47,185 nucleotides of DNA from a virus. The DNA lies in IMG/VR virus record IMGVR_UViG_3300010373_000012, positions 1-47,185 of that record; one strand, 5' to 3'. The notes under the pieces were generated by a model, which saw only the letters and a list, made by a program, of their open reading frames with translations, was not told where the DNA came from and did no database searches. The translations under genes and the position numbers were made by a program. Positions 1 through 47,185 of the stretch are shown piece by piece. Positions within the stretch are counted from its first letter, which is position 1. Each line of letters starts with the position of its first letter.

Positions 1-123
1 CACATTCGCGGTATGTTTCCTCGGCCGATCCGTACACATTCGGAACGACCTTCCATCGCTCAGCAAGCTCTCGCAGGAGCGCGGTCATGGCTTGTTCTCG
101 ATGGTGGTGAAAGTCGCTGTCGC
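1..123. repeat. Left copy of 123-bp terminal overlap
   Basis: These bases are identical to 47063-47185. A perfect repeat exactly at both contig ends is the usual sign of a circular or circularly permuted genome assembled as a line. The sequence contains the end of one small gene and the start of the next (ATGA overlap at 85-88), so translation runs across the junction. The real packaging ends are not shown by this. Confidence 0.95.
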
Positions 124-13563: not shown

Positions 13564-13638
13564 GCGAGCCTGGTCCAATGGCAGGGCACGATCCTTCCAA
13601 GATCGAAGATGCCGGTTCGAGTCCGGCGGTTCGCTCCA
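13564..13638 (+). tRNA. tRNA-Gly (UCC anticodon), CCA encoded
   Basis: A full cloverleaf can be drawn: acceptor GCGAGCC/GGTTCGC (one G-T pair), D stem GTCC/GGGC, anticodon stem CGATC/GATCG with loop CTTCCAA (anticodon TCC, 13596-13598), T arm GCCGG-TTCGAGT-CCGGC, discriminator T, then CCA. It has no recognisable promoter of its own and lies just past the late terminator, so it is probably cut from late mRNA. It would help read GGA/GGG glycine codons. Confidence 0.95.
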
Positions 13639-41624: not shown

Positions 41625-42710
41625 TCAACGGGCGGCCTTTGTGTTTTCTAGCACGCAACTAACACGCAACGCGTTCATGTACCCGTCGATGGCTGCGGCG
41701 GCATGGCTCAGAAAGTCCGGCTGATACCGCGCATACACTTCCGTCTTGCCGCTGTACGCATTGTGGCCGAGCATGCCCTGTATCTCGGCCGCATCCACGC
41801 CAGACGCGCGCAGGTGCGTCGCCATCGTATGTCGGATGACCTTGGGCACAGTGTCGGGTGCAAGGCCCGCAGCGGCCCGCATTTTGCGCCACGCTGTCTT
41901 GAAGCTGGCAATCTCGCGCCCGCGCCACTGCACCAGCGGCCCATCGTCCGCATGCTTGATGCATGGCAGCAGGAAATCACAGATCGGCACCACGGGTCGG
42001 TGTTTCTTCGTCTGTCGGCGCCCGGGCGGATTTTGGTTCAGCGTTCGCCGGTCCAGGTCAGCGAATGATCGGTGCATGCCAAGGATCGCCTCGGGACGGG
42101 CCAGCGTGCAATATGCCAGCGCGAGGTACATCCGTTCATGAGGGGCTTCGGCCGCATTCCACAGTGCGATGGATTCAGCGACGGACAGGATTTGTTCGCG
42201 CGCCATGCCATCTCGGCCCGGAATGACGAACGGCACGGTATCAATCTCGCCTTCCTTGTACGCGCGGTTCAGCGCCGACTTGCCCACCGTGAGTACGCGC
42301 TTGATATACCCATCGGATAGTGGCGTCTCGCGCCTCGCCTTCAGCCATTCCATAAACTCGCGCTGCCGTGCTGGCGTGACTTCGGACACCGTAGCGCCGC
42401 TGAAAAAGTCTGACCAATAGCCGAGAGCTACACGGGCCATCTCTGCCGACGGCAACGCTTCGGCGTGCTGCTGGTAGTACCGCACCAGCACCAGTTCAAG
42501 CGACGTCTCAGCGGCCTGTTGCTTGCCAACGCGACCGTACTTCGCGAACCACTCCCACAGCGCTACTTTGGCCGCTTGAAGATCGTCTGTGCCAAGTGAT
42601 GCGCGTCGCGTCTGCCGAGTGTTGGCGTCGTACCACGTTCGGCACCATTGCGCGGAGCCTGGCCGTTTGGTGAGCCAGTAGTCACCGATTTCTCCGATAC
42701 GTTCCTGCAT
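41625..42710 (-). CDS. int: Tyrosine recombinase, phage integrase
   Basis: A 361-aa integrase. The N-terminal part is an arm/core-binding region (LELVLVRYYQQHAEALPSAE; YWSDFFSGATVSEVTPARQR). The catalytic domain has the first Arg in LARPEAILGM, Lys in TKKHRPVVPI, PKVIRHTMATHL with the second Arg, LGHN, and Tyr in VYARYQPDF. The usual His of HxxR is Lys here (PKVIRH). CTGGAG precedes the ATG. It acts at attP 25 bp downstream. Its start lies inside the excisionase gene. It lacks the extra alpha helix I know from integron IntI. Confidence 0.92.
   Translation of the reverse strand: MQERIGEIGDYWLTKRPGSAQWCRTWYDANTRQTRRASLGTDDLQAAKVALWEWFAKYGRVGKQQAAETSLELVLVRYYQQHAEALPSAEMARVALGYWSDFFSGATVSEVTPARQREFMEWLKARRETPLSDGYIKRVLTVGKSALNRAYKEGEIDTVPFVIPGRDGMAREQILSVAESIALWNAAEAPHERMYLALAYCTLARPEAILGMHRSFADLDRRTLNQNPPGRRQTKKHRPVVPICDFLLPCIKHADDGPLVQWRGREIASFKTAWRKMRAAAGLAPDTVPKVIRHTMATHLRASGVDAAEIQGMLGHNAYSGKTEVYARYQPDFLSHAAAAIDGYMNALRVSCVLENTKAAR
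41649..41671 (+). repeat. Right integrase arm-type sites (two tandem)
   Basis: TAGCACGCAACT (41649-41660) and TAACACGCAACG (41660-41671) overlap by one base and lie within the last codons of the integrase gene (RVSCVLENT). They match the single copy on the left arm. Two on one side and one on the other fits directional intasome assembly; binding is inferred. Confidence 0.55.
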
Positions 42711-42895
42711 GACTCCAGATACTCATTCAAGATGGCGTCGGTGTAGCGGATGATGCGCTGGCCGATGCGATAGGGATGGATGCGCCCAGCGATCCGCTCA
42801 CGCATGAGCGACGCCTTGCTGATGCCAAGACGATCGGCCGCCTCGGTTTCGGTGAATCGCTTATCTGCATCCACGATATGCGTACTCTGGGTCAT
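42563..42895 (-). CDS. xis: Excisionase-like protein (HTH, 110 aa)
   Basis: Begins MTQSTHIVDADKRFTETEAA and contains DRLGISKASLMRERIAGRIH followed by PYRIGQRIIRYTDAILNEYL, a winged-helix excisionase/MerR-like DNA-binding layout. The C-terminal half is basic. It overlaps the integrase gene by 148 nt in another frame, which is unusually long. The ATG at 42895 is chosen because the domain starts there; a longer version from 42934 is possible. Confidence 0.75.
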   Translation of the reverse strand: MTQSTHIVDADKRFTETEAADRLGISKASLMRERIAGRIHPYRIGQRIIRYTDAILNEYLESCRNVSEKSVTTGSPNGQAPRNGAERGTTPTLGRRDAHHLAQTIFKRPK

Positions 42896-42983
42896 TCGGT
42901 TTACCGCCTCTCTGTTTTCATTGCCCCGCCCCACCTCGACAACCTCGCAGGGTGCTTATGCGACGATTGGCGGCCTATCTTGT

Positions 42984-42990
42984 GTTAGGT
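42984..42990 (+). other. Solitary attC-type R box (GTTAGGT)
   Basis: GTTAGGT fits the core-site consensus GTTRRRY. The adjoining GGC also matches the inner flank of site A (GCCACC/GGTGGC). It lies 9 bp past the stop of the first cassette-like gene, in the place where the next site's box is expected, but no second half is seen, so it may be a remnant or chance. Confidence 0.45.
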
Positions 42991-42998
42991 GGCTAGGC

Positions 42999-43319
42999 TC
43001 ATACTGCAACCTCGCTGTGTTGCGATTCAATCGAAACTATCGCCTCTCCCAACGCCTTCAGGGTTTCGGATTTACTATCTTCCGCGTCTATCGGGTGAAT
43101 GTATTTGATGAAATCACCATGTATCTTTACGAGTTCCGCAAGGCGGATTGCCACTTCGACGGAATCTCCATCATCGTCAATAAGCTCCAGGCAAATGTAC
43201 CCGCCTTGAAGCCGGACGCCTTCTAGCCGATTAAGCACTGCTGCTTTCCTGTCAGCCGGCCCGTACCACAATTCAAGTTTGTTGTGAAATTCAAGTTGTT
43301 CCTGTGTTTCTTCAAACAT
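42999..43319 (-). CDS. Cassette-associated hypothetical protein 1 (106 aa)
   Basis: Begins MFEETQEQLEFHNKLELWYG, continues with ADRKAAVLNRLEGVRLQGGY and ICLELIDDDGDSVEVAIRLA, and ends with a helical segment. The fold looks like mixed beta-strands with acidic loops. The ATG is preceded by GGAGAGACG. The frame is open upstream only because it runs through an attC-like palindrome, so the longer reading is rejected. It is flanked by site A (43338-43393) and a solitary R box. Function unknown. Confidence 0.75.
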   Translation of the reverse strand: MFEETQEQLEFHNKLELWYGPADRKAAVLNRLEGVRLQGGYICLELIDDDGDSVEVAIRLAELVKIHGDFIKYIHPIDAEDSKSETLKALGEAIVSIESQHSEVAV

Positions 43320-43337
43320 ATCGTCTCTCCAATCGCC

Positions 43338-43393
43338 ACCTAACAATTCATTCAAGCGGACGGCTGCGCCGCAGCTCAATTTAATCGTTAGCA
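43338..43393. other. attC-like site A (56 bp)
   Basis: Boxes ACCTAAC (43338-43344) and GTTAGCA (43387-43393) bound an imperfect palindrome with AAGCGG-A-CGGC on the left. The right arm (CAGCTCAATTTAA) is diverged, so it is the most degenerate of the four sites. The left half is the classical TAACAATTCATTCAAG of integron recombination sites. Confidence 0.7.
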
Positions 43394-43394
43394 C

Positions 43395-43595
43395 TCACCA
43401 GCCGTTGTCGCACAACGTGCACGGTTCTTCGTGTCCACACTCGGGCCAGACCTTTCGCGGAAGGGGTATTTGTCCGCGCAGCACATTGATGCATTCGTCA
43501 AACAGTTCCAGCCCTTCCGGCTGTTTTATCCGTTCACGCGTCGCCAAAAACACGCGAATGCCAGCAATCAGGTCAACCGCTTCTCGCGCCTCCAT
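43395..43595 (-). CDS. Cassette-borne hypothetical protein 2 (66 aa)
   Basis: Begins MEAREAVDLIAGIRVFLATR and ends with a zinc-type pair: CGHEEPCTLCDNGW. The start is 11-18 nt after a GTTAGCA box with GGAGACG as ribosome-binding sequence, and the stop is just inside the next site. It is the single gene of a unit of about 269 bp between sites B and A. No promoter is seen, so it depends on the leftward operon. Function unknown. Confidence 0.75.
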   Translation of the reverse strand: MEAREAVDLIAGIRVFLATRERIKQPEGLELFDECINVLRGQIPLPRKVWPECGHEEPCTLCDNGW

Positions 43596-43606
43596 TGTCG
43601 TCTCCG

Positions 43607-43662
43607 TGCTAACACGTCATTCAAGCCGACGCCTACGGCGCGGCTTAATTCAGGGGTTAGGC
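43607..43662. other. attC-like site B (56 bp)
   Basis: Boxes TGCTAAC (43607-43613) and GTTAGGC (43656-43662). The inner stem is perfect: AAGCCG-A-CGCC / GGCG-CGGCTT with one extra A on the left arm, the architecture of integron attC (L'' with extrahelical base, L'). It contains the stop of the gene at 43657 in its right box. Confidence 0.82.
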
Positions 43663-43872
43663 GTTTTCGATGATCGCCTCAATTTCGCCTCGGGTGAGTT
43701 CCTCTTTTCGCCAAAACTTGAGCGTAAGCGGACCGTCTGCGCTGTACATCATTTCGTAGTGCTCAGCTTCGGCGAGCGCACTATCTGCATCGGTAGTTGT
43801 CCCGCCAGCCAGAAATTCGCCTTGCTGCTCCACTGCGAACTCGTATTCAATTCCCATCGTCCATTTCCTCAT
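43657..43872 (-). CDS. Cassette-borne hypothetical protein 3 (71 aa)
   Basis: Begins MRKWTMGIEYEFAVEQQGEF and has TTTDADSALAEAEHYEMMYS then LTLKFWRKEELTRGEIEAII. The start follows GTTAGGC by 10 bases and the TAA stop is part of the next GCCTAAC box, the tight fit expected of a gene cassette. The protein is acidic. No family was recognised. The unit (site C to B) is about 277 bp. Confidence 0.78.
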   Translation of the reverse strand: MRKWTMGIEYEFAVEQQGEFLAGGTTTDADSALAEAEHYEMMYSADGPLTLKFWRKEELTRGEIEAIIENA

Positions 43873-43883
43873 GGTGATTCGTC

Positions 43884-43939
43884 GCCTAACACGTCATCCA
43901 AGCGGACGGCTTCGCCGCCGCTTAATTCAAGGGTTAGGC
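43884..43939. other. attC-like site C (56 bp)
   Basis: Both outer boxes fit the consensus: GCCTAAC (43884-43890) and GTTAGGC (43933-43939). The stem AAGCGG-A-CGGC / GCCG-CCGCTT is perfect apart from the extra A. Between lie ACGTCATCC and AATTCAAGG spacers. It is the best-formed of the four sites. Confidence 0.85.
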
Positions 43940-43941
43940 CG

Positions 43942-44130
43942 CTAATCGTTTACCGGCGCATATGTGCCGAGCTCAGGCGACCAGTTGCATTTTTCGCATC
44001 GGTGCTTGCCGTTCGGGCAAAGGCAAAGGCGACTACGCCCGCAATTCGGGCAGCCATGCTCACCATTGTCGTATTCACCAAGACGCCATTCCTCGCGCAG
44101 CTTCTCTTCTTTTTCGTCGTGCATTTCCAT
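43942..44130 (-). CDS. Cassette-borne zinc-ribbon protein (62 aa)
   Basis: Contains CPNCGRSRLCLCPNGKHRCE followed by KCNWSPELG: CxxC, CxC, CxxC, a likely two-zinc or rubredoxin-like knuckle. The ATG at 44130 is spaced 7 bases from GAGGA; an ATG at 44136 is too close to it. The stop TAG is 2 bases before the site C box. Unit length site D to C is about 265 bp. Function unknown. Confidence 0.75.
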   Translation of the reverse strand: MEMHDEKEEKLREEWRLGEYDNGEHGCPNCGRSRLCLCPNGKHRCEKCNWSPELGTYAPVND

Positions 44131-44148
44131 CTTCATTCCTCGGTCGCG

Positions 44149-44204
44149 TCCTAACAATTCATTCAAGGCGGACGGCACGCCGCCGCTTAATTCAGGGGTT
44201 AGGC
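44149..44204. other. attC-like site D (56 bp)
   Basis: Boxes TCCTAAC (44149-44155) and GTTAGGC (44198-44204); left spacer AATTCATTC as in site A; stem AAG(G)CGG-A-CGGC / GCCG-CCGCTT. The stop of the upstream operon gene (44199-44201) lies in the right box, marking the edge of the array. Confidence 0.8.
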
Positions 44205-44408
44205 CGCAGTCACAGATGGCTGCACGGCGATGGCTTCACTTGGCAGCGCAAGCTCAGCATCCAGCCAATAACGCGCCTCGCCGCCCGCTAGTGTTTCCAC
44301 ACACAAATCCATCTTGTCGGCATCGGATTTCGCGCCATCCCATCCGCAAGAGTTCCATCTGCCCTTCGCGTCAACCGCTACCGCAATTCGCACCTTTACT
44401 GTCGTCAT
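44199..44408 (-). CDS. Operon gene ending in attC-like site D (69 aa)
   Basis: Begins MTTVKVRIAVAVDAKGRWNS with CGWDGAKSDADKMDLC, and LAGGEARYWLDAELALPSEA; a small beta-rich protein. The start has an ATGA overlap with the gene upstream, as in the rest of the operon, whereas its TAA is embedded in GCCTAAC. It therefore forms the border between normal operon and cassette-like units. Function unknown. Confidence 0.72.
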   Translation of the reverse strand: MTTVKVRIAVAVDAKGRWNSCGWDGAKSDADKMDLCVETLAGGEARYWLDAELALPSEAIAVQPSVTAA

Positions 44409-44608
44409 TTCAATCTCCTCATCGCTTCGAATAGATCCAGCTGCGGCTCGCGCATCGCCGCAGCATTGCGCCGGCACTCCGCCGCGTAGTCCAGGTACTG
44501 CCAGAAGCTGCGCCAGTACCACGGAAGTTCAGCCGCGCGGAATCGCCAGACGCGAGCCTGCGCGAGATAGACGCGGGCGCAGTGAATCTGGAAGGCGCGG
44601 TCAGTCAC
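44405..44608 (-). CDS. Small phage protein (67 aa)
   Basis: MTDRAFQIHCARVYLAQARV is a familiar opening in small early phage proteins; it continues with YWRSFWQYLDYAAECRRNAA and ends QLDLFEAMRRLK. Mostly helical, basic. ATGA overlaps on both sides. No known activity. Confidence 0.75.
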   Translation of the reverse strand: MTDRAFQIHCARVYLAQARVWRFRAAELPWYWRSFWQYLDYAAECRRNAAAMREPQLDLFEAMRRLK

Positions 44609-44919
44609 TCTTGCCGCTCCGATGTGCGCGTCAATGCGCGACTGATACGCGACAGAAGAGTGTCCGGCTGCACATCTTCCGCGATTTTGTGTCGTTCAAC
44701 CCCAGCCTGCTCGATGATCTTGCACGTCATATCACTCGCGGCACGCTTTGCTGTTTCGATGATGCCATTCGCGCAAACGCTGAATATTTGGTCGATGTGT
44801 TCACTCGACAGATTCAGGGATACTTCGCCGCGTTCGTCGCCGAACTTAGCCGCGCCTTTGTATTGACCCTTGTTCTCTCCCCAGCGCTCAATCTCGATTT
44901 TCAATTCTTGAAGAATCAT
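44605..44919 (-). CDS. Hypothetical early protein (104 aa)
   Basis: Begins MILQELKIEIERWGENKGQY and has LSSEHIDQIFSVCANGIIET, then AASDMTCKIIEQAGVERHKI. The early part is strand-like, the rest helical. The ATG overlaps the previous stop by one base. Function unknown. Confidence 0.7.
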   Translation of the reverse strand: MILQELKIEIERWGENKGQYKGAAKFGDERGEVSLNLSSEHIDQIFSVCANGIIETAKRAASDMTCKIIEQAGVERHKIAEDVQPDTLLSRISRALTRTSERQE

Positions 44920-45182
44920 CACTCCACCTCCGGTGTGCGTCGGTCGGTTGGCGGCTTGCTGAATGAGTCTATCCACATAAACCAATCAACCATGATGCGA
45001 TACGGCCAGCTATAGCGCCTCCTCCTTGCCTCAACCATACGATCAGCGTAGGCGATGGCTCCCGATGCTATTAGGGCGAAAATCTCATCGTCATATGTTG
45101 TGACGCCTTTCCGATTGTTCTTGGCAATCAGGGCATGAAGCGCGCGCGCAGCGCACAGTGCGTGGAACTGCTTATCCCTCAT
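44919..45182 (-). CDS. Hypothetical early protein (87 aa)
   Basis: Begins MRDKQFHALCAARALHALIA; contains KGVTTYDDEIFALIASGAIA and YSWPYRIMVDWFMWIDSFSK. The start at 45182 overlaps the previous TGA by one base; a longer Arg-rich reading upstream is rejected. Function unknown. Confidence 0.68.
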   Translation of the reverse strand: MRDKQFHALCAARALHALIAKNNRKGVTTYDDEIFALIASGAIAYADRMVEARRRRYSWPYRIMVDWFMWIDSFSKPPTDRRTPEVE

Positions 45183-45352
45183 CACGCATCCTCCCCGGTA
45201 TCGAAGCGGTGTTCGGCAAGCTCTTCCCCGCAGTAACAGCAGAATTTCATGTCGTTTTCCGATGGCGTACCTTCGGTGATAACGAAGATGTTGTCGCAAT
45301 CGGTAAGCCAGTTTCCGTCTTGGTCTTGAGACCACGAGCACTTAAGCTTCAT
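45182..45352 (-). CDS. Zinc-ribbon phage protein (56 aa)
   Basis: MKLKCSWSQDQDGNWLTDCD, then FVITEGTPSENDMKFCCYCG and EELAE. The pattern C-x-W...DGxWxTxC...G.P.EN.m.FC.yCG is a recurring small phage zinc protein: first Cys pair in the N-terminal strand and second in FCCYCG. Too short for most gene finders but with ordinary operon overlap. Confidence 0.75.
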   Translation of the reverse strand: MKLKCSWSQDQDGNWLTDCDNIFVITEGTPSENDMKFCCYCGEELAEHRFDTGEDA

Positions 45353-45587
45353 CGCCAGCTCCTTGCAGGTGTTCGTCGATTTTCTTGATCGCTTCGGCGT
45401 AATGGCGCGGGTCGAGATAGCGTGATAAGTACCGCAGCAGCGCATTCGCCGCAGCGAGGCGGGATTCAAGACGCTCAACCACGCACACATGCTCCCATTC
45501 GCGGCAATCGCAGGCGTAGTGATGCGTGACGCAGTGATCTGCGCGCCCTTTCGTCGGGCCGGTGGCGAGAGGATTCGGATCGGTCAT
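45342..45587 (-). CDS. Small His/Cys protein (81 aa)
   Basis: Near the N-terminus CVTHHYACDCREWEHVCVVE carries several Cys and His, then a helix LESRLAAANALLRYLSRYLD follows. ATG at 45587 overlaps the previous TGA; an in-frame GTG 3 nt earlier is an alternative. A zinc-binding early protein of unknown role. Confidence 0.68.
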   Translation of the reverse strand: MTDPNPLATGPTKGRADHCVTHHYACDCREWEHVCVVERLESRLAAANALLRYLSRYLDPRHYAEAIKKIDEHLQGAGDEA

Positions 45588-45838
45588 CACGCCGCTCCCT
45601 TGATCGCCGCTTCGAGCTTGTCAGTTTGCTCCGTCAGATAGTCGATCGACTCCTGATCGTGTTTATTGCATAGCTCGATCTCGCGGCGATGACTGGCAAT
45701 CACCTCGCGCACAGCGACAAGATACGCGTCGATGGCGTCGGCCATTTCGTTAGCGGTCTCGTTGGTAAGGGTCCGGTAATCTGGGTCATCGCTCCGATGG
45801 CGAAGTTGATTTTTCACCTGTTCCAGCGTCATCGTCAT
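45587..45838 (-). CDS. Helical hypothetical protein (83 aa)
   Basis: Begins MTMTLEQVKNQLRHRSDDPD; the rest is helical (ANEMADAIDAYLVAVREVIA, IDYLTEQTDKLEAAIKGAA). ATGA overlap with the preceding gene. No family was recognised. Confidence 0.68.
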   Translation of the reverse strand: MTMTLEQVKNQLRHRSDDPDYRTLTNETANEMADAIDAYLVAVREVIASHRREIELCNKHDQESIDYLTEQTDKLEAAIKGAA

Positions 45839-46125
45839 GACGGATCTCCTTTGAGGATTCTATCTGCCCGCATCTGCGCCGCCTGTGCTGGCGGGTGGCC
45901 GAGAAAGTACGGTTTCCAGTCTCCGTACTCACCGGGCTTGTCGGACCAGTAGCGTTTGCCATCACTGAGCAGCGCGGTATAGCCGTCCGGCACCGCCCCC
46001 TCGTCCGCCTTGATGCGCTCAAGGAGGTCGGCGTAGTCGTTGAGCATGCGCATTGGTACTTCATCGAATACTCGCGCGTGCCTGTCTGCTTCAGCCCGCA
46101 CTTCCTTCACCGAATACTTACTCAT
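45835..46125 (-). CDS. Hypothetical early protein (96 aa)
   Basis: Begins MSKYSVKEVRAEADRHARVF; a middle segment YTALLSDGKRYWSDKPGEYG resembles a small phage motif (DGxRYWSxxPG). GGGGAG precedes the ATG at 46125. The gene overlaps the preceding one by 8 nt. Function unknown. Confidence 0.68.
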   Translation of the reverse strand: MSKYSVKEVRAEADRHARVFDEVPMRMLNDYADLLERIKADEGAVPDGYTALLSDGKRYWSDKPGEYGDWKPYFLGHPPAQAAQMRADRILKGDPS

Positions 46126-46393
46126 GGCGTTCTCCCCACTTTGATTCAATTCTTTTTCTAGTTTCGCGAGAAAGGCCAGAGCCATTTCCATGACCAGGCA
46201 TGCTTTCCTCCAGCTCCTTGCATGCGCGTATATCGCACGACTCCGAGCAAACCCATCCGCCGTAATAGCAGGCACGCACGATACCTAGCTCGTTTAACGG
46301 GTAGTAAGCACGGCCGCCTTTTCGGTACGGGCTGCCACGCAACTCTCGTCCACAGCCACGGCATATCGGCGTTGTGTCGGTACAACTATGCAT
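46118..46393 (-). CDS. Zinc-finger early protein (91 aa)
   Basis: Contains CRGCGREL near the N-terminus and GGWVCSESCDIRAC about 35 residues later, together able to hold one zinc. Strong ribosome-binding sequence AAGGAG at 6 bases before ATG 46393. Its C-terminus is polar (RETRKRIESKWGERHE). It overlaps its upstream neighbour by 8 nt. Function unknown. Confidence 0.7.
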   Translation of the reverse strand: MHSCTDTTPICRGCGRELRGSPYRKGGRAYYPLNELGIVRACYYGGWVCSESCDIRACKELEESMPGHGNGSGLSRETRKRIESKWGERHE

Positions 46394-47150
46394 GGCGTTC
46401 TCCTTTGCGGGCGGCGTCGATCCACGAATCCCATTCTCGCTCTGGCTCGTCGCAGTTAAGCGAAGGCCCGGAAGACAGTCGCATAAACCCATCGACGGCC
46501 TTATTGCGCAAAAACCGCCACCTCGCTGCATCCTCCGCATCCCCGCTCACCTCCGCCACTTTGGCGAAGTGGGTGAGGGCGGCTCGCATCCAGCGCATTG
46601 GCTGTTCTTGTTCCATGCGCAGCCAGCGCTCGCCGTAAAAGGCGCGGCAAGCTCCACGCACATCCGCATCGCTCACCCCGCCAGATTGTGCGGGGTTGGT
46701 TACTGGCTTGAGCATTTCGTGGGCCTGTTTTGCGCGTCCGGGGCCGTTGTGCCGTTCAACATGGCCTATTGCTGCCAAAGCCGACTCACGCGATACAACT
46801 TCACCTACCGCCCCGCCATCGCCGCCAGATCGCGCGGAGTCGTGGCGCGTTACCAGATCAGATCGGATGTACTTCACTTCGCAGTCAAGCACCGAATCTG
46901 CACACCACGTAATTTCGTCGCCGTGATCGGCAGGGAAAGCTTCTTCATGATCGGATTCGTCGTCGCTGATCTGCAAATAAATCTGCTCCGGAGCGGTGCG
47001 GATAAGCTCCGTCACCGCGCAGCCATCGCCCTCGGCGTCGAGGATGGAGAGGAGTTCGTCAGCACATTCGCGGTATGTTTCCTCGGCCGATCCGTACACA
47101 TTCGGAACGACCTTCCATCGCTCAGCAAGCTCTCGCAGGAGCGCGGTCAT
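46386..47150 (-). CDS. Multi-segment hypothetical early protein (254 aa)
   Basis: N-terminal helical half (AERWKVVPNVYGSAEETYRE), a central acid region with ITWCADSVLDCEVKYIRSDL, and a C-terminal half combining RGACRAFYGERWLRMEQEQP with AARWRFLRNKAVDGFMRLSS. The last two patterns recur, singly, in small phage proteins, so this gene looks like a mosaic of such modules. The start lies in the terminal repeat and overlaps the preceding gene across the junction (ATGA at bases 85-88). Function unknown. Confidence 0.75.
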   Translation of the reverse strand: MTALLRELAERWKVVPNVYGSAEETYRECADELLSILDAEGDGCAVTELIRTAPEQIYLQISDDESDHEEAFPADHGDEITWCADSVLDCEVKYIRSDLVTRHDSARSGGDGGAVGEVVSRESALAAIGHVERHNGPGRAKQAHEMLKPVTNPAQSGGVSDADVRGACRAFYGERWLRMEQEQPMRWMRAALTHFAKVAEVSGDAEDAARWRFLRNKAVDGFMRLSSGPSLNCDEPEREWDSWIDAARKGERHA

Positions 47151-47185
47151 GGCTTGTTCTCGATGGTGGTGAAAGTCGCTGTCGC
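47063..47185. repeat. Right copy of 123-bp terminal overlap
   Basis: Identical to 1-123. Bases 47147-47185 again hold the end of the 60-aa zinc-ribbon gene, so that gene should be counted once when the genome is circularised. Confidence 0.95.

Follow-up and report, generated by a model that had tools for sequence, protein, structure and literature searches.

An attC array with attC-first cassette polarity in the complete genome of a temperate phage

The window analysed here is the whole of a single IMG/VR virus record (IMGVR_UViG_3300010373_000012; 47,185 bases). An exact 123-bp repeat at both ends indicates that the genome is complete; portal, baseplate, tail and integrase genes are encoded, and the window is the complete genome of a temperate phage. 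Near its right end lies an array of four attC sites, the recombination sites of integron gene cassettes, which delimit four cassettes with one open reading frame (ORF) each (Table 1). Very probably this is an array of the type known as a cluster of attC sites lacking integron integrases (CALIN), with the unusual polarity that attC precedes the gene, and with cassettes that are proposed to be exchanged by an integron integrase (IntI) acting on them.

Table 1. Features of the attC array and of the phage genome that carries it
Feature	Position	Strand	Remarks
Terminal repeat	1..123 = 47063-47185	n/a	exact, 123 bp
Phage tyrosine integrase	41625..42710	-	phrog_1, PF00589; not IntI
Left box GTTAGGT	42984..42990	+	attI-side end of array; first crossover G42984|T42985
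Cassette 1	42985..43387		crossover to crossover, 403 bp
Cassette 1 gene	42999..43319	-	106 aa; Shine-Dalgarno sequence GGAG
attC 1	43338..43393	+	R1 37.4 bits, E 2.7e-8; right arm diverged relative to L008
Cassette 2	43388..43656		269 bp
Cassette 2 gene	43395..43595	-	66 aa; CxxC-type
attC 2	43607..43662	+	R1 52.1 bits, E 1.3e-12
Cassette 3	43657..43933		277 bp
Cassette 3 gene	43657..43857	-	66 aa; TAA stop inside attC 2 R' box (GCCTAA|C, gene strand)
attC 3	43884..43939	+	R1 59.0 bits, E 1.2e-14
Cassette 4	43934..44198		265 bp
Cassette 4 gene	43942..44136	-	64 aa; zinc-ribbon-like; phrog_24897
attC 4	44149..44204	+	R1 48.0 bits, E 2.1e-11; right end of array
Array-adjoining gene	44199..44410 (approximate ends)	-	stop from attC 4 R' box; sequence reading

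The covariance model used to identify the sites (R1) was trained on seven attC from clinical class 1 cassettes, none of them from the window; the loops of two were shortened beforehand because MAFFT misaligned the long attC when loops were kept at full length. An earlier note, made from the sequence alone, had placed four sites here, and all four coincide exactly with R1 matches of significant score (37.4-59.0 bits). Over the 47,185 bases the only further R1 matches with E<=1 are to the opposite strand of two of these sites (24 and 18 bits). The bottom strand of every site folds as an R/L hairpin, and among 200 shuffles of each an equal fold was obtained 9, 0, 0 and 2 times for attC 1-4, respectively. 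An extra-helical base is present on the left arm of the plus strand, as in aadA1; in the wider survey described below, 143 of 150 sites from phage arrays and 88 of 90 bacterial ones likewise have this base on the left arm when read on the strand called by the model. A CALIN requires at least two clustered attC with R''/L''/L'/R' boxes and the extra-helical base, and four such sites are found. Early regular-expression scans for attC were too loose, matching the window no more often than shuffles of it, and the covariance model was used in their place. A scan of Rfam gave no match. The four sites are real attC and are far from chance.

The top strand of all four attC is the plus strand, while the Shine-Dalgarno (SD) sequences and starts of all four genes are on the minus strand, so that each attC lies upstream of its gene and points in the opposite direction. 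Each unit contains one ORF that starts with ATG on the minus strand and is preceded by an SD sequence, with a coding score above that of any plus-strand ORF, and the four genes run in the same direction as the leftward phage genes. The canonical order, which is usual in integrons but not strictly required of a CALIN, is gene then attC in one direction, and it is not found here. The earlier note had described standard cassettes, with each start after a GTTRRRY box and each stop at RYYYAAC; this was a reading of the wrong strand, and the polarity was missed because the boxes are nearly palindromic. Simple backward insertion of an entire canonical array was considered and rejected, since it does not account for the opposition of gene and attC inside each unit.

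The generality of this polarity was assessed on further array contigs, collected from IMG/VR by an attC pattern scan blind to gene direction and by protein searches, against a bacterial set of integrons fetched by their IntI; the direction of the gene between neighbouring attC was called from a dicodon model and SD sequences. The phage contigs gave 85 reversed, 16 canonical and three ambiguous calls and four intervals with none, compared with 11 reversed, 49 canonical and ten ambiguous for the bacterial integrons (Fisher p about 1e-16 for reversed against canonical). The contrast persists without SD information (83:16 in phages, 11:48 in bacteria), with the coding models swapped (84:16 and 11:49) and when each contig is counted once (22:2 and 1:15, p 5e-8). 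SD sequences accompany 60 of the 85 reversed calls but just one of the 16 canonical calls in the phage contigs, so that many of the latter are likely to be noise. Terminase, portal, head-tail or tail genes, of several different kinds, are present in those array contigs that were checked. In L063, which is distantly related to the window phage, there are six attC and five reversed cassettes; a DNA methyltransferase is among the cassette products, and none of the cassettes is in common with the window. The reversed polarity is a class found mainly in phages and is general there.

There are two side observations. In some long phage attC (L086:11117-11216, L098:11551-11653 and L098:12021-12120) a ribosome-binding site and a start codon lie in the terminal loop, and the gene would begin inside the attC. 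Four IMG/VR contigs derived from isolates (L110, L092, L087 and L170) appear to be ordinary bacterial chromosomal integrons with canonical cassettes.

Comparison of related phages revealed differences by whole units. L008 is a sister phage whose tail region is 98% identical to that of the window phage; it has a different integrase and holds only cassette 1. The two sequences are identical over about 385 bp, starting with the GTTAGGTGG box at 42984 and reaching halfway into attC 1, and the 60-80 bp immediately to the left of this box have clearly diverged. The gene that adjoins the array on the right stands between attC 4 and the sequence shared with L008, and is not present in L008. A relative of cassette 1 occurs in L011 (77% over 355 bp), where it adjoins an attC. 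A version of cassette 3 with 88.7% identity over 256 of its 277 bp (94% amino-acid identity for the protein) is found in L005, a contig whose terminase and portal genes are those of another, unrelated phage; the match starts at the first base past G|TT, and the attC across the boundary is a different sequence. Cassette 4 matches an array cassette of the tailed phage L036/L139, likewise unrelated, at 82% over its first 116 bp, again from the exact crossover base. Exchange by units with G|TTRRRY boundaries is observed in these comparisons, the right boundary of cassette 1 being the exception, and the earlier proposal of cassettes in a phage early region that are exchangeable as units is borne out. 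Both outcomes that the earlier note had named as refuting it were checked for, and neither was obtained: the attC model scores are significant, and relatives of the phage differ by units.

The exception at cassette 1 suggests that part of the exchange is homologous or otherwise independent of IntI, because the identity to L008 stops inside attC 1; judged from these sequences, attC copies probably also undergo homologous recombination with one another. The attC 1 of the window (43338-43393) and its counterpart in L008 (8076-8131) differ only in the right half, where the L008 version resembles attC 4 of the window, and the L008 site is possibly a hybrid attC produced by homologous recombination.

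No IntI is encoded in the window. The phage's own integrase scores 27 bits against TIGR02249, for which the cut-off is 265, and a complete integron, with intI in cis, is not present. The earlier note had likewise seen no IntI, and that stands; its corollary, that the host has to supply the enzyme, is too restrictive, since arrays of this kind also occur in phages that encode their own. A true IntI is found in two array phages, G013 and G020, that of G013 matching VchIntIA (2a3v) over its full length, and a scan of IMG/VR gave 49 IntI loci. In a quick tree, in which the bacterial sample was the 80 best matches, 39 of 42 viral IntI fall into two virus-only groups of 28 entries (Shimodaira-Hasegawa-like approximate likelihood-ratio test, SH-aLRT, 98) and 11 entries (SH-aLRT 82). 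The exceptions are L149 (the IntI of G020, which lies beside Thiobacillus/Nitrosomonadales), L170 (the isolate integron noted above) and L184 (a long branch). The intI gene lies directly upstream of, or overlaps, the large terminase gene terL in at least three contigs, L119 (G013), L145 and L147; judged by gene order, intI-terL is a putative conserved neighbourhood for phage-borne IntI. In one subgroup of the viral IntI (L152, L161, L174, L176 and L187) the attC lie 3' of intI and in the same direction, unlike in ordinary integrons.

On the proposed mechanism, IntI would recombine the folded bottom strands and so insert or excise cassettes at G|TT, the enzyme being supplied by a chromosomal integron of the host or by a co-resident or co-infecting phage that encodes it. 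Leftward transcription of the phage operon would read through into the cassette genes and so express them, in place of an integron Pc promoter. Transcription may also help to expose the recombinogenic bottom strand, since the reversed polarity makes it the non-template strand of the operon. The target of selection would be a set of small, exchangeable early genes, many of them probably directed against host defence. The earlier note had spoken of promoterless genes within a promoted operon: a scan of 42700-47185 for sigma-70 promoters found no promoter-like site, which agrees with the first half, no unit having a sigma-70-like promoter, and gives no operon promoter for the second.

Several observations weigh against the interpretation of the array as an attC-first CALIN exchanged by IntI. 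Besides the lack of IntI, no attI was identified in the window, where only the GTTAGGT box at 42984 was seen and neither an attI model nor a search for binding repeats was applied. Most relatives of the window phage, found through a tail protein, give no attC match. The polarity calls concern short genes and depend on coding models, and cassettes within one contig are not independent of each other. The match to L036 spans just 116 bp of cassette 4, and in cassette 1 the sequence ceases to be identical to that of L008 about 27 bp short of the right crossover.

This last point, together with the missing IntI, is what would be expected if the attC-like repeats now served merely as homology linkers for recombination by phage or host enzymes, with no current part for IntI; the right arm of the L008 site is that of attC 4 in the window, as after a crossover between two attC. 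Such an explanation is nevertheless unlikely, since the matches to cassettes 3 and 4 start exactly at G|TT with dissimilar attC on the far side, attC that differ strongly in sequence still retain the boxes, the pairing of the arms and the extra base, which linkers would not need, and phages with the same arrays encode IntI. An origin of the array as a relic, in which a prophage happened to acquire part of its host's chromosomal integron and took it up in inverted orientation, is very improbable. Vibrio phages are known to capture pieces of host integrons, according to PMC9892861, but an inverted piece would keep gene and attC in the same direction, whereas here and in many other phages they are opposed; moreover, the protein family of cassette 4 is a phage one and cassettes are common to several phages. 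The notion that the repeats are RNA elements of the operon (terminators, or hairpins for processing or translation control) that merely resemble attC draws on their position between co-directional genes and on hairpins forming on either strand, but is hardly credible given the match to clinical attC with E down to 1e-14, GTT boxes and extra base included, the absence of a T-run terminator at the window attC sites in the scan made for one, the coincidence of unit boundaries with the crossover base, and the retention of GTTRRRY boxes and extra base across phages whose hairpin stems have diverged.

The products of the array give few functional clues. None of the four window cassette genes has a match in Pfam, and those of cassettes 1 and 2 have none in PHROG; relatives of the cassette 4 family, phrog_24897, are present in many phages without arrays. 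Among 67 reversed cassette proteins compared with Pfam, nine matches to DNA methyltransferases were counted (PF01555 six, PF00145 two and PF02086 one), and one protein each matched an Acb2/Tad1 hairpin, the restriction alleviation protein Lar, NinX and a dATP/dGTP diphosphohydrolase; most of the 67 have no Pfam match. Elsewhere in its genome the window phage carries a tRNA-Gly (TCC) gene (13564-13638).

Among isolated phages, megablast with the array region gave no match and the attC search detected nothing except a class 1 integron carried by a P1 isolate. No attC was found by the search in Shewanella phage vB_Sb_QDWS, whose portal is the nearest (64%) among isolated phages. The phage records OK094664 (attributed to Shewanella) and OP650936 (attributed to a Tenericutes bacterium) are both 47,902 bp long with near-equal match scores and possibly represent one genome of doubtful host.

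Phage CALINs are already known, as is the recombination of phage attC by IntI1: Qi et al. (2023; PMC9892861) describe attC clusters without intI in the isolated tailed phages Tetrasphaera TJE1, Pseudoalteromonas PH101 and Polaribacter P12002L, like that in the window, with five of six tested phage attC recombining with attI1. The TJE1 and PH101 arrays are called typical of bacterial arrays there (PMC9892861); in TJE1, as checked here, attC and genes have the same direction, whereas the window genes oppose their attC. Sharing of cassettes between phages, observed here, does not appear in the available text of that paper (PMC9892861). Short attC of the window type occur in chromosomal integrons of Xanthomonadales (Lysobacter tabacisoli L245 and Luteimonas aestuarii L271); these have intI beside the array, and in bacterial cassettes taken together the genes follow the attC direction (49:11), neither of which holds for the window. 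The mobile class 1 cassettes (aadA, aadB, aac(6') and qacL) have the R''-L''-L'-R' architecture in common with the window sites, with the extra base on the left arm, but place the gene before attC, whereas in the window attC comes before the gene and there is no Pc, attI or intI. Treponema-type integrons are another known unusual layout; there it is the orientation of intI that is unusual, as opposed to the opposition of gene and attC within the cassette.

A literature search, which did not extend to subscription papers or preprints, found no published report of reversed cassettes, phage-to-phage cassette sharing or a virus-only IntI lineage, and all three appear to be new. Somewhat more can be said for than against the broader proposition that tailed phages possess their own integron system, with a largely virus-confined IntI lineage and attC-first arrays expressed from phage operons, through which small early and counter-defence genes are swapped cassette by cassette between unrelated phages; the window phage would be a member that lacks IntI and uses an enzyme supplied in trans. 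The reversed polarity predicts which strand must be exposed for recombination, which is testable, and provides a signature by which sequence data can be searched for such arrays. Recent descriptions of bacterial integrons include anti-phage defence genes among their cargo, and phage arrays with methyltransferases, Acb2/Tad1 and Lar would be their counterpart. It has long been asked by what means unrelated phages, whose genomes are mosaics, exchange single small genes; in this case the units, the sites and a candidate recombinase can be named, making the exchange directly testable.
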